From Bacteroidetes bacterium ADurb.Bin037 (GTDB taxonomy: Bacteria > Bacteroidota > Bacteroidia > Bacteroidales > UBA932), in NCBI GenBank assembly GCA_002071175.1, contig MWER01000004.1, positions 186,001-250,000 of the forward strand: 64,000 nucleotides of DNA, written 5' to 3'. Below are positions 18,448 through 28,219 of the stretch, one piece after another. A program made the translations under genes and the position numbers. The notes under the pieces are model-generated. The model was not told the DNA's origin, did no database searches, and saw nothing but the letters and a program-made list of their open reading frames with translations. Within the stretch, counting starts at the first letter, position 1. Every line of letters begins with the position of its first letter.

Positions 18448-19062
18448 ATGGTTGCTGTGTACCATAAAAGCCTGAAACGGATCCTTGCGGCGGCGGCTCT
18501 GATCCTGTTTTTATACGGATGCGGAGGAAATCCTTCAAAATTCGTAGACAACATTTATGTAGGTACATGGCATATAGATACATCCAGGGTAAGTATTTCC
18601 GTTACCATAGATGCGGGAGATGCTGCCGATCTCAAGATTTTTATGCCTTTTGTTACGGACAATTATCAGAAAATAAGAACATTGCTTAAGGATCCCTATA
18701 CTATTTATGTATCCGGCTCTTCAAATAATGACCCTTATTCCGGATCTTATTCCCTTCACTTCTCTTCCGGTAACGTTTATACCAATTCCTATAAACTTGT
18801 ACGCAATATACTGTTTATCACTTTTTCCGATAAATCGGGAAATAAATACACCATTCCATGCCAGGCAGACGGGAACACCCTTCAGATCGTTTATTCAACC
18901 CCTTATATGCAAGCCCTGTTTGCTGATTTCATTAAAGACAACTATCCCGAACAAGCTAAAGAATTTCTCCCCATACTTTCTTCCATTACCGTGACTATAG
19001 AAGGTCGCAGCGTTTACAATACAAGAACTCGCGGTTCAGTCTTGCAATATGAGCAACCGTAA
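18448..19062 (+). CDS. Hypothetical lipoprotein
   Basis: A 204-residue protein of no family I can name. The N-terminus is a lipoprotein signal peptide (LAAAALILFLYGCGG), with the lipid-modified cysteine in LYGC. The mature part starts with a YVGTWHID motif and alternates short polar and hydrophobic stretches, suggesting a small lipocalin-like beta barrel (inference only). The last 68 nt overlap the 3' end of the convergent frdB gene. The frdB end is well conserved, so this gene's C-terminus is the likelier one to have extended. The start is supported by a -7 box 8 nt upstream. Confidence 0.8.
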   Translation: MVAVYHKSLKRILAAAALILFLYGCGGNPSKFVDNIYVGTWHIDTSRVSISVTIDAGDAADLKIFMPFVTDNYQKIRTLLKDPYTIYVSGSSNNDPYSGSYSLHFSSGNVYTNSYKLVRNILFITFSDKSGNKYTIPCQADGNTLQIVYSTPYMQALFADFIKDNYPEQAKEFLPILSSITVTIEGRSVYNTRTRGSVLQYEQP

Positions 19063-19744
19063 TATTTTTGGGACATTCCATTTGGCACGATCCAATATTA
19101 GTGCATGATCCGAATCCCAACTCGTCCATTTTTGACACCATAGCACGTGCTCTACGGCTGGCTTCCGGCTTTCCTTGTGGCAGGAGCGACAATGCGCTTA
19201 CCCGCGATGCCACGAACAAAAGGGCCGATCCGTTTTTGCATGTGGCCACACATGCTCCGCATCCGATACAGGCCGAAGCGTCCATGCTTTCCTTTGCTTT
19301 CTCCGCAGAAACGGGTAAGGTGTGGGCTTCGGGAGCACTTCCGGTGTTAACGCTAATAAAACCACCCGCCTGCAGGATCTTATCGAAGGCTCTCCGATCT
19401 ACCATCAAGTCCCTTATAACAGGGAACGCTGCACTCCGCCAGGGTTCCACCGTTATTTGACTTCCGTCCGGAAAACGGCGCATATATAACTGGCATGTAG
19501 TAATCCCTTCGTCAGGTCCGTGTGGTCTTCCGTTGATAAATAATCCGCAAGCTCCGCATATCCCTTCCCTGCAATCGTGATCGAATGCGATCGTTTCCTT
19601 ACCCTGCTCAACCAGACTGTTGTTAAGGATGTCAAGCATTTCGAGAAAAGAGGTGTCTTCCGTGATATCATTGATTTCAAAACGCTCAAAATATCCTTTG
19701 GACCGGGGACCTGCCTGTCTCCATATTTTCAATACAAAATGCAT
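18995..19744 (-). CDS. frdB: Fumarate reductase / succinate dehydrogenase Fe-S subunit
   Basis: The electron-transfer subunit of the succinate:quinone oxidoreductase complex. It is 249 residues from the ATG at 19744, one base after the frdA stop. An upstream in-frame start would lie inside frdA. The N-terminal ferredoxin domain ligates [2Fe-2S] through CREGICGACG and a later Cys in EGITTCQL. The C-terminal domain has CIGCGACVATC and CTNIGSCQMECPKN for [4Fe-4S] and [3Fe-4S]. It belongs to the type found in Bacteroides and epsilonproteobacteria. No membrane-anchor subunit gene is adjacent. Confidence 0.96.
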   Translation of the reverse strand: MHFVLKIWRQAGPRSKGYFERFEINDITEDTSFLEMLDILNNSLVEQGKETIAFDHDCREGICGACGLFINGRPHGPDEGITTCQLYMRRFPDGSQITVEPWRSAAFPVIRDLMVDRRAFDKILQAGGFISVNTGSAPEAHTLPVSAEKAKESMDASACIGCGACVATCKNGSALLFVASRVSALSLLPQGKPEASRRARAMVSKMDELGFGSCTNIGSCQMECPKNITVAHIARLNREFLYCKRCDLL

Positions 19745-19745
19745 C

Positions 19746-21689
19746 TTATGTATATTTTCGTTCCGTAACGGGAATATTTTCAAATACCAGTTGTTCCTTG
19801 TGCAAAATGGGACCTCCGCCTTTATGATCGTATTGCCATGCTGCCACATGTTGAAAATGCTCGTCATCCCTGAGGGTTTCCCCGTCTTTTGTCGTGCTTT
19901 CGGTACGAAAATGACTTCCACACGATTCTTTACGGTATAAAGCATCGGTTACCATCAATTTGGCAAGGGTAAAATAGTCTTCCAGATGAATGGCCTTTTC
20001 GAGCTCCTGGTTCACCGTATTGCTGTTTCCCGGAATTCCCGCTTCTTCTCTGAAAGATGTCTCCAGTTGATCTATCAGGGGCATAGCTTCTTTCAACAGA
20101 TCGGCCGACCTTACGATTCCGGCATGATCCCACATCAGTTTACCCAGCTTGCGGTGAAAACGATCTATAGGAACATGACCTTTTATGTTCATCAATCTGT
20201 CTATCCGATCCTGAACTTCCGACCTGGCTTGAATAAAAACAGCAGAAGTGGGGTCGGGACAAGGTTCGTCAACTTTATCCGCTAAAAAGTCAGGCAATGT
20301 ATAAGGCAAAATAAAGAATCCGTCGGCCAACCCCTGCATCAGGGCTGAAGCACCCAGCCGGTTTGCCCCGTGATCGCTGAAATTGGCTTCACCTATGGCA
20401 AATAATCCATCAATGGTAGTCATCAGGTTATAGTCAACCCATAGTCCTCCCATCGTATAATGCATGGCAGGATATATTTGCATAGGCTCCTTCCAGGGAT
20501 CTTCCCCTGTTATCTTTTCATATATTTGGAACAAGTTCCCGTATTTCTCTTCGATCGTTTTTCTGCCCTGTGTAGAAAGGGCAAGGGAAAAATCCAGATA
20601 TACAGCTCTTCCTGTTTTGCTGACTCCCAGACCGGCCTCACACCGTTCCCTGGCAACGCGCGAAGCGATATCCCTGGGTACCAGGTTGCCGTAAGCGGGA
20701 TATTTGCGTTCCAGGTAATAATCCCTGTCCTGTTCAGGTATCTGGGAAGGTTTCTTTTTCCCTTCGCGTAGAGCCAAGGCGTCTTCTTTTTTGGACGGGA
20801 CCCAAATTCTTCCGTCATTCCGCAGCGATTCGCTCATTAGCGTAAGCTTGGACTGATATTCTCCCTGAACGGGAATACACGTAGGGTGAATCTGAGCAAA
20901 GCCGGGATTGGCAAAAAAAGCTCCTTTCTTCCAACATTGCACCAAAGCAGAAGCATTGGAGTACAGTGCATTTGTAGATAAAAAATAAACATTCGCGTAT
21001 CCTCCCGTAGCCAGTACAACGGCATGAGCCGGATAAACGTCGATCTTTCCTGTAACCATGTCACGGGTAATAATCCCCTTTGCCCGACCATCCTCAACCA
21101 CAAGGTCCATCATCTGTTGCCTGCTGTGGACCGTTACGGTTCCCCGGGCTACTTGCCGGTTCAAAGATGAACAGGCTGCCAGCAGCAACTGTTGGCCGGT
21201 TTGCCCTCTGGCATAAAACGTCCTGCTTACCAGCGAACCGCCAAAAGAACGATTGTCCAGGTATCCCGCGTAATCCCTCGCAAAGGGAACGCCAAGTGCA
21301 ACACAATGATCTATAATCGCATTGCTTATCTGTGCAAGCCTGTACACATTTGATTCCCTGGACCTGAAATCCCCGCCTTTAATGGTGTCCAGGAACAGCC
21401 GGTATACCGAATCATTGTCATTTCTATAATTCTTTGCCGCATTGATACCTCCCTGGGCTGATACCGAGTGTGCTCGGCGGGGTGAATCATTCATGCAAAA
21501 AACATTCACCCGATATCCCTGCTCACCTAATGCTGCAGCTGCCGAAGCCCCGGCCAATCCCGTTCCCACTACAACGACATGCATCCGTTCCCTGTTGGCG
21601 GGAGAAACACTTCTCAGTGTTTCCTTATGGGAAGACCATTTTTCTTCAAGCGGTCCTTCAGGAATCTTTGCATTAAGTATACCGGCCAT
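19746..21689 (-). CDS. frdA: Fumarate reductase / succinate dehydrogenase flavoprotein
   Basis: The catalytic subunit interconverting fumarate and succinate. It is 647 residues from the ATG at 21689; the longer reading to 21737 would start upstream of the promoter box. The FAD fold motif is [12 protein letters not shown] (residues 41-52), and the covalent FAD histidine is H74 in [15 protein letters not shown]. Catalytic blocks include [10 protein letters not shown] and the capping-domain [16 protein letters not shown]. In anaerobic Bacteroidales this enzyme normally works as a fumarate reductase in succinate production. The usual cytochrome b subunit gene is not upstream: a divergent namZ-like gene begins there instead. 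Confidence 0.97.
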
Positions 21690-21708
21690 AATCTTTTTGT
21701 TTGTTCGA

Positions 21709-21716
21709 CAAAAATA
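21709..21716 (-). promoter_or_regulatory. -7 box (TATTTTTG) of frdAB
   Basis: An exact TAnnTTTG match on the minus strand, 19 nt upstream of the frdA ATG. Confidence 0.6.
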
Positions 21717-21757
21717 CAAAACAATGTCAAGATCCAATTTTTTCCTAACTTAGACGT

Positions 21758-22948
21758 ATGAAATGCTTGTTTTATTATATCGGAATTATAGGATTATTCC
21801 TGCTCTCCGTTTCCTGCGGGAATAGATGGAATAATGAACCGCTTCGCACCGGAGCGGAAAATACGGATACCTACCTTTCCCTGCTTGAGGGAAAAAGGGT
21901 GGGGATGCTTACAAACCATACGGCCCTTATAGACGAAACACATCTGGTAGACAGCCTGATCTCCCTGGGTGTTGACATCCGCATGATCTTTGCTCCGGAG
22001 CATGGCTTCCGGGGAAATGAAGATGCGGGGACACGTATTGATCACCATACAGACGGGGCTACAGGTGTTCCCATAGTCTCTGTATACGGAGCGGGGTTTA
22101 TCCCCGCCGACAGCCTGATGCAGCAATTGGATATTGCCATTTTTGATATACAGGATGTAGGTCTTAGGTTTTATACCTATCTCTCTTCTATGTATTATTT
22201 TATGGTAGCCTGTGCCCGGAATGATGTTCCGCTTATCGTTCTGGACCGGCCCAATCCTAACGGTCATATTGTTTCCGGTCCCGTTCTGGATATGCAGTAC
22301 CGGTCTTTTGTAGGGATCATCCCCATCCCGGTCGTTCATGGTATGACCTTGGGCGAACTGGCTTGTATGATCAATGGTGAATTGTGGCTTCCGGACAGCC
22401 TGCAGGTCAGCCTGACAGTCGTTCCGTGCTTGAATTACACCCATTCCACGCACTATGAACTGCCTGTAAAACCGTCTCCGAACCTGCCTAACAACCGCTC
22501 CATTTACCTGTATCCTTCCCTATGCCTTTTCGAAGGTACCCGGGTAAGTCTGGGAAGGGGTACCGAATTTCCTTTTCAGGTGTACGGACACCCAAAAATG
22601 AGCGGATATGATTTTTCCTTTACTCCGCTACCTGTCCCGGGAGCCATGAATCCTCCGCAAAAAGGCAATTTGTGTTACGGAGTGGACCTCAGGACTTCTC
22701 CGCCCGATGATATAATATGGGCTAACGGATTTGATCTGACCTATGTAATTGACGCCTTCAGGAACCTGCAAGAAAATGATGGAATGGGAGAAGATTTCTT
22801 TACTCCGTATTTCGAAAAACTAGTCGGTGTGAACTATGTTCGCACAATGATCCTGGAAGGAAAAGAGGCTGACCAGATTGCTGCTATGTGGTATGAAGAT
22901 CTGGAGTCATTTAAACAAAAAAGAAAAGAATATCTGATCTATCCCTGA
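21758..22948 (+). CDS. namZ: DUF1343 / NamZ-type exo-beta-N-acetylmuramidase, lipoprotein
   Basis: A 396-residue DUF1343 protein. Characterised members (Bacillus subtilis and Tannerella forsythia NamZ) remove terminal N-acetylmuramic acid from peptidoglycan fragments. The N-terminus is a lipoprotein signal with lipobox LSVSCG, so it is membrane-anchored and faces the periplasm or surface. Family blocks are RVGMLTNHTA, FAPEHGFRG (with the proposed catalytic Glu), IQDVGLRFYTY, LDRPNPNG and GTRVSLGRGTEFPFQVYG. It leads a tight plus-strand cluster, followed 4 nt later by a DUF4251 gene and then a GH20 hexosaminidase. This fits stepwise removal of MurNAc and GlcNAc. Confidence 0.9.
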   Translation: MKCLFYYIGIIGLFLLSVSCGNRWNNEPLRTGAENTDTYLSLLEGKRVGMLTNHTALIDETHLVDSLISLGVDIRMIFAPEHGFRGNEDAGTRIDHHTDGATGVPIVSVYGAGFIPADSLMQQLDIAIFDIQDVGLRFYTYLSSMYYFMVACARNDVPLIVLDRPNPNGHIVSGPVLDMQYRSFVGIIPIPVVHGMTLGELACMINGELWLPDSLQVSLTVVPCLNYTHSTHYELPVKPSPNLPNNRSIYLYPSLCLFEGTRVSLGRGTEFPFQVYGHPKMSGYDFSFTPLPVPGAMNPPQKGNLCYGVDLRTSPPDDIIWANGFDLTYVIDAFRNLQENDGMGEDFFTPYFEKLVGVNYVRTMILEGKEADQIAAMWYEDLESFKQKRKEYLIYP

Positions 22949-22952
22949 CATT

Positions 22953-23450
22953 ATGAAAAAGTTTATCGTCATTTCATTATGCATGCTGATTTTTATACCG
23001 TTCGGTGCTTCCGGCCAGTCTCAACAGGAAGCAAGGGATGCAAAAAAGGTTGCCGTTGAAGAACAAGTGAGAATGCTTGTAGAAAGCGGAACGTTTGAGA
23101 TCTCTTTCGATAGAGCGAACCCGGTAAGAGGAAGGTCTGTCATACTTTCCCCGGTTTATGAAATGAAATTTAACAACAATTGTGTTTCTACATACCTGCC
23201 TTATTTTGGACGGTCTTATACGGCTCCCGCCAATCCTGCTAAACTAGCCATTGAGCTTAATGAAACCGTGGTGGAAACTGAAACGGTAAAAGACCGCAAG
23301 AAAGGATATACCATCATTTTTTCCGCAAGAACAGAAACCAACGAAAACATTACCTTTTACCTTAGAATTAGTGCCAGCGGTATGGCAAGTCTTTCTATTA
23401 ACAGCAGTTCCAGAACAGCTATCACCTACCTGGGCTATTTAAAAATGTAA
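22953..23450 (+). CDS. DUF4251 domain protein, exported
   Basis: A 165-residue protein of the Bacteroidota-specific DUF4251 family. Residues 1-21 are a Sec signal peptide ending FGASGQ. The mature protein opens with a charged helix, then a beta-rich domain with the family motifs TFEISFDRANPVRGRSV and YLPYFGRSYTAP, ending ISASGMASLSINSSSR. Function is unknown. Its place between a NamZ-type muramidase (4 nt) and a GH20 hexosaminidase (6 nt) suggests it belongs to the same cell-wall sugar pathway, but the sequence does not prove it. Confidence 0.85.
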   Translation: MKKFIVISLCMLIFIPFGASGQSQQEARDAKKVAVEEQVRMLVESGTFEISFDRANPVRGRSVILSPVYEMKFNNNCVSTYLPYFGRSYTAPANPAKLAIELNETVVETETVKDRKKGYTIIFSARTETNENITFYLRISASGMASLSINSSSRTAITYLGYLKM

Positions 23451-23456
23451 CTTTTT

Positions 23457-25661
23457 ATGAATACTTTGATCGCATTATTGATGACCTCTTTAATCCACCT
23501 TATTCCGGCACCTGTAGAAATGATCCCCGGTAAAGGCAGTTTTATACTCCAAAACGGTACTGCTTTGTATATTCAGGATCCTTCCAAGGCAAAAGATGCA
23601 GTCTCGTTCCTTACGAGCACGCTGGAACCTTCTACCGGTATTGTCCCGGCAGTTGTAAAACAGTATCCCGCTGCGGGAGCCGTATTATTTGTATGCAACG
23701 ACTCCCTGCCTGCAGAAGGATATACGTTGACCGTAACTAAAGATTTGATTGAAATTGCCGCCAACGATCCGGCAGGTTATTTTTACGGGGTACAGACTTT
23801 GTTGCAACTGTTGCCTCCGGAAGTTTACCGGCCCGTTTACCAGCCTGATCAATACACCCCTGCTCTTGAACTACAAGTGCCTTGTGTCAGGATCCGCGAT
23901 TATCCCAGGTTTTCGCACCGTGGTATGATGTTGGACGTGAGCCGTCAATTCTTCACCGTTGATTATGTGATGCGGTTTATAGACTGGATGGCAAAACACA
24001 AGCTGAACCGCTTTCACTGGCATCTGGCAGACGACAACGGATGGCGCATTGAGATAAAAAAATATCCATATCTGACTAAAAAGGGAGCCTGGCGTGGTCC
24101 CGGAGAAGTGCTTCCTACCATGTACGGACACGCCGGTGAAAGATACGGAGGTTATTACACCCAGGAAGATATTCGCAGGATCGTGGCTTATGCATCGGCA
24201 CGTCAGGTAGAGATCATCCCGGAAATTGACCTTCCCGGACATTCCGCAGCGGCCATTGGTAGTTATCCGGACATCCTGTGCGATTTGACAACGGAAAAAG
24301 GGGAATTGAGCGCACAGGGGATGAGTAACAATGTCTGGTGTGCCTCATATGAGAAGAATTACAAAATGCTCGAAGATATTATCCGGGAAATGGTCCAATT
24401 GTTCCCTTCCCAATATTTTCACATTGGAGGTGATGAGGTTGTGACCAGCCAATGGACAAACTGCACCCGTTGTACAGCTTTCATGCATGAACACAATATG
24501 AAAGATCCCATGGAGATGCAATTCTATTTTGTGCAACGCATGCAACAGATCCTCAATAAATTCGGAAAAACGCTTGTGGGATGGGATGAGATCATGGAAG
24601 GAGGGGAACTGGATCGGGAAAAGACCGTTATTCTTGCCTGGCGACGCGCCGCCAATATTAAGGAAGCAACCAGTGCAGGATACAAGGTTATAGTACAACC
24701 CGCACAATATTACTACCTGGACATGAAACACACGCTGGCAGAAAGAGGCATGACATGGGCCGCGATATTTGATATTGATAAAGTTTATTCTTTCGATCCT
24801 GTCGAAACTCCCGGATTGACTGCCGATGAGGCCTCTAAAGTTTTGGGTATCCAGGGGGGATTGTGGGCGGAATTATTGAATATGCCGCCCCGTATTGCAG
24901 AATATCAGACATATCCCCGGCTTTGTGCCCTTGCCGAAACAGCTTGGAGTCCAAAGGAAAATAAGAATTGGGAAGATTTTAAGACCCGCCTAAGCGAAAC
25001 CCATTTTGACCGGTTATATCATATGGGAATCCGTTTTCGCATACCGCCTCCCCTGGCAGATTACGTAAACGGATATATCTGCGCTCAAAACGAATACCCC
25101 TGGATGGTAATACGTTATACTTGCGACGGGACCGATCCCGATTCGCGTTCTCCGCTCTATACGGGGCCTATAAGCACCAAAACACCCGAATCATACCGTT
25201 TTGCATCCTTCTTCCGGGATGATATCCGCAGTATAGTCCGTGAAGCAAACCTTCCCTATGAACGCTATCAAAAACCGATAACCCACGTTACCGGAAATAT
25301 CAATATTCATCCACGTACTCCCCTTTCGCTGCTCGGAGACAATAATCGCTCGACATATGTAAGATGCTTCGGTCCCCTCAAAGAAGGTCAATCGTTATTA
25401 TACACTTTTGAAGAACCGCTCAAAACAAAAGGCATTACTATTCAAACCGGTCTGCCATATGCAGAAATTAATATAGTGGATTTTGCATACGTGGAATATT
25501 CGCCGGACGGTACATCTTTTAAAAAAGCTGACTGCCCATGGAAAGACGGCGGATGTCGTTTTGTACCGGAAGGTCCTGTTAAAGCGGTACGCATCGTTTT
25601 TGAGAATGGAAACCAGATACCTACTTATTTTTTACAGGATCTTTTAATAGAAAATCAATAA
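23457..25661 (+). CDS. GH20 beta-N-acetylhexosaminidase
   Basis: A glycoside hydrolase family 20 enzyme that removes non-reducing GlcNAc or GalNAc by substrate-assisted catalysis. It is 734 residues long. After a short hydrophobic N-terminus lies the GH20b domain (to about residue 150). The TIM barrel starts at FSHRGMMLDVSRQFF and includes NRFHWHLADDNGWRIEI. The catalytic Asp-Glu pair is D326-E327 in HIGGDEV, and WGG-type tryptophans are present (GWDEIMEGG, GGLWAELLN). The C-terminus has a chitobiase-like beta domain and a discoidin-like tail. Substrate could be peptidoglycan, chitin oligomers or host glycans; the namZ neighbour favours the first. Confidence 0.95.
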   Translation: MNTLIALLMTSLIHLIPAPVEMIPGKGSFILQNGTALYIQDPSKAKDAVSFLTSTLEPSTGIVPAVVKQYPAAGAVLFVCNDSLPAEGYTLTVTKDLIEIAANDPAGYFYGVQTLLQLLPPEVYRPVYQPDQYTPALELQVPCVRIRDYPRFSHRGMMLDVSRQFFTVDYVMRFIDWMAKHKLNRFHWHLADDNGWRIEIKKYPYLTKKGAWRGPGEVLPTMYGHAGERYGGYYTQEDIRRIVAYASARQVEIIPEIDLPGHSAAAIGSYPDILCDLTTEKGELSAQGMSNNVWCASYEKNYKMLEDIIREMVQLFPSQYFHIGGDEVVTSQWTNCTRCTAFMHEHNMKDPMEMQFYFVQRMQQILNKFGKTLVGWDEIMEGGELDREKTVILAWRRAANIKEATSAGYKVIVQPAQYYYLDMKHTLAERGMTWAAIFDIDKVYSFDPVETPGLTADEASKVLGIQGGLWAELLNMPPRIAEYQTYPRLCALAETAWSPKENKNWEDFKTRLSETHFDRLYHMGIRFRIPPPLADYVNGYICAQNEYPWMVIRYTCDGTDPDSRSPLYTGPISTKTPESYRFASFFRDDIRSIVREANLPYERYQKPITHVTGNINIHPRTPLSLLGDNNRSTYVRCFGPLKEGQSLLYTFEEPLKTKGITIQTGLPYAEINIVDFAYVEYSPDGTSFKKADCPWKDGGCRFVPEGPVKAVRIVFENGNQIPTYFLQDLLIENQ

Positions 25662-25959
25662 CTTACTCTTTTTCAAATATTTTACACATCAACTTTACTG
25701 TTTATAACTACCCTCCTGCTTGTGCAAAACCTGTTTACTAAACTGAAGATAAAAAAGTGATTTTTGTTAATAATTTTTGATTTGTGGATAAATGGTGTTT
25801 TATCTATATTTACCAACAATGATATAAACATCACTTTTATATAAATAATTGGTTATAATGCTGATTTATAAATAATTATTTTATTTATCAACAAATCAAC
25901 AAACAAACAATACATACAATAATCTTAAAAAGAAATTATTTATTTATTTAATTGCTTCT
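25662..25959. other. AT-rich intergenic region, candidate replication origin (oriC)
   Basis: The largest gene-free gap in the window (298 nt), strongly AT-rich and built of runs such as TTATTTATTTA and CAACAAA repeats. It contains a perfect DnaA box (TGTGGATAA, 25783-25791) and near-matches: TTATCAACA (25885-25893), TGTGCAAAA (25721-25729) and TTTTACACA (about 25680-25688). No TAnnTTTG box for ruvB is evident. Alternatively it is simply a long AT-rich promoter and leader for the ruvB run. Confidence 0.4.
25783..25791 (-). promoter_or_regulatory. Perfect DnaA box (TTATCCACA)
   Basis: TGTGGATAA on the plus strand is the exact complement of the high-affinity DnaA box TTATCCACA. It lies in the middle of the AT-rich gap. 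Confidence 0.55.
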
Positions 25960-26982
25960 ATGGTTGATTTTGACCCCCATAAAAATAATAAGGAAACCGT
26001 TGACAAGGATTTTGAGGAACAGATACGACCAAGGGAATTTAAGCAATTTGCCGGTCAAGATAAGATAACAGACAATTTAAAAGTGTTCGTAAAAGCTGCA
26101 CTTTTAAGGGGGGAGTCTCTTGATCATGTTTTATTACACGGTCCTCCCGGATTGGGTAAAACTACGCTTGCGCACATTATTGCCAATGAACTGGATGTAG
26201 GAATGCGGATTACCTCCGGCCCCGTTTTAGATAAACCGGGCGATCTGGCCGGTTTGTTGACAGGCCTTGAAACCGGGGATGTTCTTTTTATTGATGAGAT
26301 ACACAGGTTATCCCCCGTGGTGGAAGAATATCTCTATTCTGCAATGGAGGATTTTACTATTGATATAATGCTGGACAAAGGTCCCGGAGCCCGTTCCGTG
26401 CAAATAGCCCTGCAACCTTTTACACTGATTGGAGCAACGACGCGAAGCGGGCTGCTTACAGCACCACTGAGGGCACGTTTTGGGATACAATGCCATCTTG
26501 AGTATTACGATACTCCCGTATTATTACAAATAGTACTTCGTTCGGCATCTATCCTTCAGGTTGAAATCGACACCCATGCCGCACAGGAAATAGCTTCTCG
26601 CAGCCGCGGTACCCCAAGGATAGCCAACTCGTTATTGAGAAGGGTGAGAGATTTTGCCCAGGTCAGGGGATCCGGAAAAATAGATAACGCCATAACACAG
26701 TATGCCCTCGATGCACTTCATATTGATAAAAGGGGTCTGGATCAGATGGATAATAAGATCCTTTCCACAATCATACACAAATTCAAAGGCGGACCTGTAG
26801 GAATAGGTACTATAGCTACGGCTGTAAGTGAAGAAATCGGGACTTTGGAGGAAGTGTATGAACCTTTCCTGATCAAAGAAGGTCTATTACAGAGAACACC
26901 CAGAGGAAGAGAGGCAACCCAGCTTGCTTATGAACACCTGGGTGTATTGTCTGCAGATAAAAATAATATATCATTGTTTTAA
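25960..26982 (+). CDS. ruvB: Holliday junction branch migration helicase RuvB
   Basis: The AAA+ motor that drives branch migration with RuvA. The 340-residue protein has Walker [10 protein letters not shown] (residues 61-69), Walker [11 protein letters not shown] (108-117), sensor 1 and arginine-finger segments [19 protein letters not shown], sensor 2 [17 protein letters not shown], and a C-terminal winged helix ending [17 protein letters not shown]. It is the first gene of an 11-kb plus-strand run reaching ppiD. The next gene begins 10 nt after its stop. Confidence 0.97.
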
Positions 26983-26992
26983 ATAAAAAGTC

Positions 26993-28219
26993 ATGAAACA
27001 TAAAAGTCTGTTTTTTACCGTTTTTATCTTTATTATCTTATTATCCAATAATTCACAGGCTTGTACGTCTGCCATTATAACCGGTAAGGTTACGGCAAAC
27101 GGAAAGCCTCTTTTGTGGAAACACAGGGATACGGGAGAGGAACAAAACCGTATAGAATATTTCACTACGGGAAAGTATGCATTTCTTGCTCTTGTTAACG
27201 CTCCCGATAAAGGAGGAACGGCATGGATAGGTACTAACAATGCTGGTTTTTCCATTATGAACACGGCTTCCTATAATTTAAAGGATGATGACGTAAAGGA
27301 AATGGACCGGGAAGGTAAATTTATGTACAGGGCACTGGAAATATGTGCTGATTTAAATGACTTTGAAAAAATGCTGGACACCTTGTCAAGACCTATCGGT
27401 GTAGAAGCCAATTTCGGCGTGATAGACGCATTGGGAGGCGCTGCCTATTATGAAGTCAATAATCATTCATGGGTAAAAGTTGATGCTAACGATCCGACTG
27501 TCGCTCCCTACGGTTACCTGATCTATACGAATTTTTCCTATACCGGAAGAATGGATGAGGGTATGGGATATATGCGTTACCAGACGGCAAGCGAATTGTT
27601 TTTGCAAAAATCGTCCGTTTCTGGTTTTACACCGTCATGGATTTTTTCCCATGTTTCCCGGTCGTTTTACCATGCCTTTTTAGGTATAGATCTTTGTGAT
27701 CATAATTCTTTTCCGGAAAAAGCCAACGGGTGGTTCGTAGAACAGGATTTCATTTCCCGCCGTTCCAGCACCTGTTCCATAGTGATAGAAGGGGTCAAAA
27801 AGGGAGAAGACCCGCTCAATACGATCATGTGGACCGTTATGGGATATCCCCCGACCGGAGTATGTATTCCTCTTTGGGTGCAGATGGGATCCGATCAGCC
27901 TTATCTCCTGTTGGGACAGGGAGAAAATAACAGATCTCCCTTATGTGAAGAGGCCGTAAGGCTTAAACACCTTGTATTTCCGGTAAAAAGGGGTAACGGA
28001 CCGCGTTATATGCATTTTTCGCTTTTATGGAACAGTCAGGGAACGGGCTTTATGCAACAGCTTGCCCGGTTGGAAGAAATACTTTTTGATAAATACGGGA
28101 TACTTATAGAAACACTGGAAAAAGAAGGATTAACCGGAAAAAAACTGGATAAAAAACGTATAAAGGAATTATACCGTGAAATATCTCCTATGATCGAAGA
28201 GGTATATGACAGACTTTGA
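26993..28219 (+). CDS. C45-like Ntn-hydrolase / choloylglycine hydrolase-fold protein, exported
   Basis: A 408-residue exported protein resembling C45-family (acyl-CoA:6-aminopenicillanic acid acyltransferase-like) Ntn hydrolases. A Sec signal peptide (residues 1-23) ends SQA, immediately followed by Cys24 in CTSAIITGKV and then GKPLLWKHRDT, the pattern of the catalytic N-terminal Cys and nearby Arg/Asp. Signal peptidase cleavage would thus itself expose the nucleophile without autoproteolysis. The natural substrate is unknown: amide, acyl-amino acid or bile-acid-like bonds are possible. Its end overlaps mfd by 14 nt. Confidence 0.75.
   Translation: MKHKSLFFTVFIFIILLSNNSQACTSAIITGKVTANGKPLLWKHRDTGEEQNRIEYFTTGKYAFLALVNAPDKGGTAWIGTNNAGFSIMNTASYNLKDDDVKEMDREGKFMYRALEICADLNDFEKMLDTLSRPIGVEANFGVIDALGGAAYYEVNNHSWVKVDANDPTVAPYGYLIYTNFSYTGRMDEGMGYMRYQTASELFLQKSSVSGFTPSWIFSHVSRSFYHAFLGIDLCDHNSFPEKANGWFVEQDFISRRSSTCSIVIEGVKKGEDPLNTIMWTVMGYPPTGVCIPLWVQMGSDQPYLLLGQGENNRSPLCEEAVRLKHLVFPVKRGNGPRYMHFSLLWNSQGTGFMQQLARLEEILFDKYGILIETLEKEGLTGKKLDKKRIKELYREISPMIEEVYDRL

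Follow-up and report, generated by a model that had tools for sequence, protein, structure and literature searches.

We describe here a cluster of three genes in a stretch of 64,000 nucleotides (nt), hereafter the window, from Bacteroidetes bacterium ADurb.Bin037 (family UBA932; contig MWER01000004.1), and propose that it is an exo-acting set for the release of peptidoglycan sugars outside the cytoplasm, feeding a salvage of N-acetylmuramic acid (MurNAc) that is likely essential in the genus. We give this reading a probability of about 55%. The genes encode a putative exo-β-N-acetylmuramidase (NamZ1), a protein of the DUF4251 family and a β-N-acetylhexosaminidase of glycoside hydrolase family 20 (GH20). 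Salvage would be essential because the genus lacks MurA and MurB while later Mur enzymes remain, and from this gene content we predict for the source genus a dependence on salvaged MurNAc like that of Tannerella forsythia.

The genus set comprises 13 genomes, the source genome (G000) included, nine of which are at least 90% complete. MurA was above its cut-off in none of the 13, with weak matches in 12, and MurB gave no match in any of them, while MurC was above cut-off in all 13; in the source genome MurE, MraY, MurD, MurG and MurC are all above cut-off and form a wall-synthesis cluster. In the controls MurA and MurB were each above cut-off in 10 of 14, the same ten bacteria. A hidden MurA was considered and rejected, both scanned weak genus matches being aroA: the match of G000 has aroA as its best model at 272 bits, just below the cut-off of 287, and adjoins aroC, and that of G002 is above the cut-off at 360 bits. 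Two other genus matches (L235, L239) look aroA-like beside aroC by eye. The case for the absence of MurA and MurB rests on 13 of 13 genomes, with nine at this level of completeness. Among 60 relatives, source included, MurA was above cut-off in 39 and MurB in 35, and both were missing in 19, namely the 13 genus genomes and single genomes from six other genera (G014, G015, G016, G023, G030 and G032), all six with MurC above cut-off. Thus, MurNAc dependence may extend beyond the genus. MurA is present with no MurB match in G024, G025, G045 and G047, and MurB is present with no MurA above cut-off in G050. Among the titles and abstracts listed from the open literature, none describes MurNAc dependence in the source genus. 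An earlier note on this DNA, made from the sequence alone, had called the cluster a possible scavenging unit; the term may undersell the case in a genus without MurA or MurB above cut-off, where MurNAc is possibly essential.

The cluster and its divergent neighbour occupy the following positions in the window:

21758..22948, plus strand: NamZ1, putative exo-β-N-acetylmuramidase, 396 amino acids (aa), with NamZ_N and NamZ_C domains
22953..23450, plus strand: DUF4251 protein, 165 aa, Pfam PF14059
23457..25661, plus strand: GH20 β-N-acetylhexosaminidase with GH20b domain, 734 aa, by Pfam
23457..23510, plus strand: short hydrophobic N-terminus of the GH20 protein, MNTLIALLMTSLIHLIPA, judged by eye from the sequence and by comparison with orthologues
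19746..21737, minus strand: sdhA, fumarate reductase/succinate dehydrogenase flavoprotein, the divergent neighbour, by family match and synteny

The read-out of open reading frames (ORFs) and the Pfam matches agree with the earlier note in placing the three genes on one strand, with 4 nt between namZ and DUF4251 (22949-22952) and 6 nt between DUF4251 and GH20 (23451-23456). They are the only NamZ, DUF4251 and GH20 matches of the source genome, an assembly of 1.40 Mb in 16 contigs that is 82% complete. NamZ1 matches NamZ_N at 245.7 bits and NamZ_C at 103.8 bits (cut-offs 26.9 and 25), and its closest solved relative is 4jja, with 474 bits across residues 31-395. The PEHG motif is intact and aligns with 4jja and 4k05, and its Glu81 is presumably the catalytic residue. 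The N-terminus, ending in LLSVSC, predicts a lipoprotein as judged by eye. The GH20 protein matches Glyco_hydro_20 at 381.7 bits and Glyco_hydro_20b at 92.4 bits, together with weaker CHB_HEX_C matches; its catalytic domain aligns with many solved β-N-acetylhexosaminidases, and the HIGGDE motif is intact at residues 322-327, with an Asp-Glu pair that we take to be catalytic. Against the relatives L003, L004 and L009, the ratio of non-synonymous to synonymous polymorphism (pN/pS) is 0.17-0.21 for NamZ, 0.26-0.36 for DUF4251 and 0.18-0.25 for GH20; given these low values, all three genes look constrained. The gene ruvB follows GH20 after 298 nt, and a scan of seven ORFs from 18448 to 28219 found no SusC/SusD pair.

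Most genomes of the genus share this neighbourhood. The three genes lie on one contig in nine of the 13 genomes (G000, G001, G002, G004, G005, G007, G009, G010 and G012), with their tight spacing maintained, and in G003 and G011 contig ends interrupt an arrangement that is compatible with it. G006 has namZ and GH20 without DUF4251, and G008 keeps just namZ, with ruvB as the next gene. Retention is 13/13 for NamZ1, 12/13 for GH20 and 11/13 for DUF4251. The earlier note had named the lack of a conserved neighbourhood in related genomes, joined with GH20 activity on chitin or host glycans alone, as fatal to its proposal; since the arrangement is shared within the genus, the first half of this objection falls away. 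Nine loci, L002-L010, were taken as genus members by identity and synteny (NamZ 75-82% identical to that of the window); they overlap the genus genomes and are not independent of them, and they include Rikenellaceae bacterium DTU002, a biogas-reactor bin (PMC4736482). As a side observation, the genes of a molybdenum-dependent dehydrogenase pair, recognised by Pfam in L004, and of a small unassigned protein stand between GH20 and ruvB at L004:13882-17903; the same set also occurs in L005, L008, L009 and L010 and is absent from the window.

From gene identities, gene arrangement and the pathway genes present or absent, all read from sequence, we infer substrates, an order of action, a location, a role for DUF4251 and an auxotrophy as follows. 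NamZ1 would remove MurNAc from the non-reducing end and the GH20 enzyme would remove N-acetylglucosamine (GlcNAc) from the non-reducing end, the two alternating on peptide-free or trimmed glycan fragments. The DUF4251 protein would be a small periplasmic β-barrel accessory to GH20, probably binding glycan or enzyme and having no catalytic function. The freed MurNAc would then enter salvage, being either catabolised through a MurNAc kinase and MurQ or turned into uridine diphosphate (UDP)-MurNAc by AmgK- and MurU-like enzymes.

Candidates for these later steps are present in the genus. The source genome has a MurQ at 315.7 bits, above cut-off, whose gene overlaps a kinase-like gene with a weak match of 24.9 bits to the NagK model; an SSF symporter (65.9 bits) lies beyond recR (by eye) from murQ. 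In G007 AmpG-like, NamZ2, GH18, AmgK-like and MurU-like genes were scanned in one run, and G008 shows the same order by eye. NamZ2 and the AmgK-like protein each occur in 12 of the 13 genus genomes. The AmgK model gives 81 bits on the kinase part (cut-off 550) and the MurU model 97 bits (cut-off 370). As a separate observation, the AmgK-like phosphotransferase of G007 (L185:11548-12963) carries a fused C-terminal RapZ domain; a homologue, matching over nearly its full length, is found in 12 of the 13 genus genomes. Such genes invite a different explanation, by which the cluster acts in the periplasm of the growing cell to recycle its own peptidoglycan instead of harvesting foreign cell walls. 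AmpG-, AmgK- and MurU-like genes do belong to recycling routes, and the enzymes of the cluster are predicted by eye to be periplasmic or lipid-anchored, both as expected of recycling, but with MurA and MurB absent a growing cell makes no net gain of MurNAc from recycling and some must come from outside, which does not by itself make the cluster the supplier. We therefore regard recycling as distinctly unlikely to be the main function.

Fifty NamZ loci from beyond the genus were surveyed, some of them short. GH20 directly follows namZ in four, two from Alistipes and two from Tidjanibacter, all Rikenellaceae, and no DUF4251 match was found in any of the 50; among the 60 related genomes no namZ-GH20 adjacency beyond the genus was seen by eye. 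The Rikenellaceae GH20 proteins adjoining namZ and those of the sdhA locus form one clade in the GH20 tree, with 27 of 48 rows and support 100/100, apart from 21 other GH20s (48 of 73 rows were used, L124 being left out as too short). In Bacillus subtilis the gene order is namZ-nagZ-amiE, and the pairing of namZ with a hexosaminidase gene that the earlier note drew from this species does recur, with GH20 of the same clade, in the two Alistipes and two Tidjanibacter loci. Both Alistipes loci have glmS upstream by eye, and a PF00144 beta-lactamase-family gene was scanned next after GH20 in L011, which L012 resembles by eye. This order is similar to that of NagZ and AmiE in B. subtilis.

The sdhA locus, in which sdhA serves as the marker of the ancestral site and has no part in the proposed pathway, suggests in what order the genes came together. 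Genera g4, g10, g13 and g16 have one to three copies of DUF4251 divergent from sdhA and followed by GH20, without namZ, and further on the loci read continue with a C45/C69-like hydrolase gene and ruvB (the label is the analyst's, the NCBIfam C45 match being 29 bits and below its cut-off). GH20 stands beside sdhA without DUF4251 in G016 and G022, and in G029 (genus g18) sdhA is followed by namZ at a contig end; the G029 NamZ is sister to NamZ1 of the source genus (support 100/98) in a tree from which the window row was dropped as identical to L001, rows shorter than 300 aa were left out, and loci L061-L118 were omitted along with 15 others that had close kin in the set. Among the loci read, namZ adjoins sdhA only in the source genus and this one sister genus. 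Since other genera hold DUF4251 and GH20 at sdhA without namZ, the link between these two looks older and namZ looks like a later arrival. The GH20 tree initially set the source genus outside the other sdhA-locus GH20s, and a single clade was not rejected (approximately unbiased test, p-AU 0.52). An independent relocation of DUF4251-GH20 in g12 was ruled out, as the side with the C45/C69-like hydrolase and ruvB is unchanged. Two DUF4251 genes are kept at the locus without GH20 in G201 and G272. On the side, two or three tandem DUF4251 copies lie beside sdhA in L157, L140 and L160 of genus g4, the latter two loci having two copies and no GH20. Also near sdhA, the window encodes at 18448-19062 a 204-aa predicted lipoprotein (by eye) with no Pfam or NCBIfam match, for which tblastn found matches in seven of the nine loci L002-L010.

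This history suggests another explanation of the cluster, synteny without shared function, in which GH20 together with DUF4251 has long stood at the sdhA locus, its substrate being chitin or some other glycan with GlcNAc, and namZ simply moved in. The loci without namZ in four genera, those of G016 and G022 without DUF4251, the sdhA-namZ arrangement of g18 and a DUF4251 in G013 whose neighbours are a distant GH20 and a BNR sialidase all agree with it. We nevertheless consider it unlikely, as the same GH20 clade adjoins namZ at a different locus in Rikenellaceae and the spacing of the three genes is tight within the genus. A further point against it comes from G015, where at L203:4766-9756 another GH20 gene is followed by a murQ-like gene (below the MurQ cut-off), a kinase-like gene and an MFS transporter gene, so that GH20 is tied a second time within the family to metabolism of the MurNAc type.

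The location of the GH20 enzyme deserves separate comment. Its N-terminus carries about 13 hydrophobic residues ahead of the GH20b domain, with no classical cleavage site by eye, while orthologues of other genera have ordinary-looking signal peptides. The earlier note had called the enzyme exported; the hydrophobic N-terminus is there, and the lack of a classical signal peptide by eye leaves that claim weaker than it was put. The enzyme could instead have lost its export in the source genus and cleave imported disaccharides inside the cell or at the inner membrane, replacing NagZ. The short N-terminus, which shows no cleavage site in those genus members that were inspected, would fit this, as would the AmpG-like permease of the genus, but the hydrophobic N-terminus is kept across the genus, as expected of an export or anchor signal, and we judge such a loss very unlikely.

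The DUF4251 protein matches PF14059 at 92.8 bits (cut-off 27) and has a signal peptide by eye followed by a small β-rich domain; it is predicted to be periplasmic. A structure model based on eight aligned sequences (predicted local distance difference test score, pLDDT, 85.5) consists of an N-terminal helix and nine strands. Its best fold matches are 3fyf (Z 13.2), an uncharacterized Bacteroides protein, and 4gdz (Z 12.4), a DUF4251 family protein; both share the fold at 14% identity, and neither entry title states a function. Lower matches (Z 9.5 and less) are small β-barrels of many kinds and were not used. A sequence search of the PDB gave no match up to E 1, and in the open literature searched DUF4251 was found in one paper, as a row of a gene table, while no paper mentioned 3fyf or 4gdz by name or code. 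The matches listed in a survey of the family comprise 166 distinct ORFs for DUF4251, from 132 genomes. Among these matches GH20 lies directly downstream of DUF4251 in 38 of the 132 genomes, in seven genera and mostly at one ancestral locus, and no GH20 lies directly 3' in the other 94, a few of these being due to contig ends (seven of the 166 ORFs end at one). In G157 DUF4251 comes after a GH84 gene, and in G013 (L173) it lies beside the distant GH20, the sialidase and a second DUF4251 match, with a SusC-like gene by eye. It can be missing where NamZ and GH20 are kept, as in G006. A general partnership with NamZ was rejected on the lack of DUF4251 matches in the 50 non-genus loci, some of them short, and one with GH20 holds only partly, on the count of 38 genomes among the matches listed. 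Of the two neighbours beside which the earlier note proposed to look for DUF4251 elsewhere, GH20 was found in the family and namZ was not found in the non-genus loci, and a NamZ- or peptidoglycan-specific context for the protein is not supported, DUF4251 being older beside GH20 than beside namZ and mostly without GH20 downstream. We infer that where the two are adjacent DUF4251 is an accessory of secreted hexosaminidases and not a peptidoglycan-specific factor.

Several observations weigh against the cluster as a supplier of essential MurNAc. G008, which is 99% complete, lacks GH20 and DUF4251 as well as MurA and MurB, therefore neither GH20 nor DUF4251 is needed for MurNAc supply. The sdhA-GH20 locus also occurs in G022, which has both enzymes. 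The DUF4251-GH20 locus does not track the loss of MurA and MurB across the family: G013 has MurA and MurB together with its own distant DUF4251-GH20 pair, G024 has MurA, and no such pair was found in G014, G030 and G032, which lack both. MurA and MurB are adjacent in G013, G017, G027, G028, G033 and G049, and one deletion might therefore explain why both are gone. The AmpG-, AmgK- and MurU-like proteins score far below curated cut-offs, for which reason these names are tentative, and the source genome at its 82% completeness has no NamZ2 or AmgK-like match. The absence of a classical signal peptide from the GH20 of the source genus (by eye) counts on the same side.

Some known systems resemble the proposed one. 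With the namZ-nagZ-amiE and murQRP genes of B. subtilis it shares an exo-muramidase gene beside an exo-hexosaminidase gene and a MurQ in the genome. The hexosaminidase here is however a GH20 and not a GH3 enzyme, DUF4251 stands between, murQ lies elsewhere in the source genome, and neither a GH3 NagZ nor an AmiE amidase is adjacent in the window, where DUF4251, GH20 and ruvB come next. NamZ1 and NamZ2 are reportedly known from T. forsythia as well, being named in the title of one paper. The likeness to this species lies in the lack of MurA and MurB, in murQ near kinase-like and transporter genes, in the AmpG-like permease and in two NamZ proteins in 12 of the 13 source-genus genomes. T. forsythia is described as lacking MurA and MurB and relying on outside MurNAc (PMC5790795, PMC7670621), with ampG and murTKQ forming one transcription unit for MurNAc salvage (PMC5790795, PMC7670621, PMC5388701, PMC10465942). 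By comparison, the source genus is uncultured, its namZ1 stands with DUF4251 and GH20, and in G007 and G008 the AmpG-NamZ2 run and murQ are on separate contigs. The anaerobe Fidelibacter multiformis IA91 is described as dependent on the muropeptides of other bacteria (PMC11652737); it belongs to another phylum and, by the same account, cannot make several other wall components, whereas the source genome keeps MurC, MurD, MurE, MurG and MraY.

A broader claim, that the whole genus and probably members of at least six further genera of the family have lost MurA and MurB and need foreign MurNAc, with NamZ1-DUF4251-GH20 as a harvesting module in which the DUF4251 barrel serves the exo-enzymes by binding glycan ends, is possible but doubtful. 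Few organisms have been described as dependent on foreign cell-wall sugar, T. forsythia and Fidelibacter among them. If the proposal is true, the peptidoglycan of other cells would feed an essential step of wall synthesis, genus-wide or wider, among relatives of biogas-reactor bacteria, and the cluster would give DUF4251, for which a structure has been solved, a concrete setting in which to test its function.

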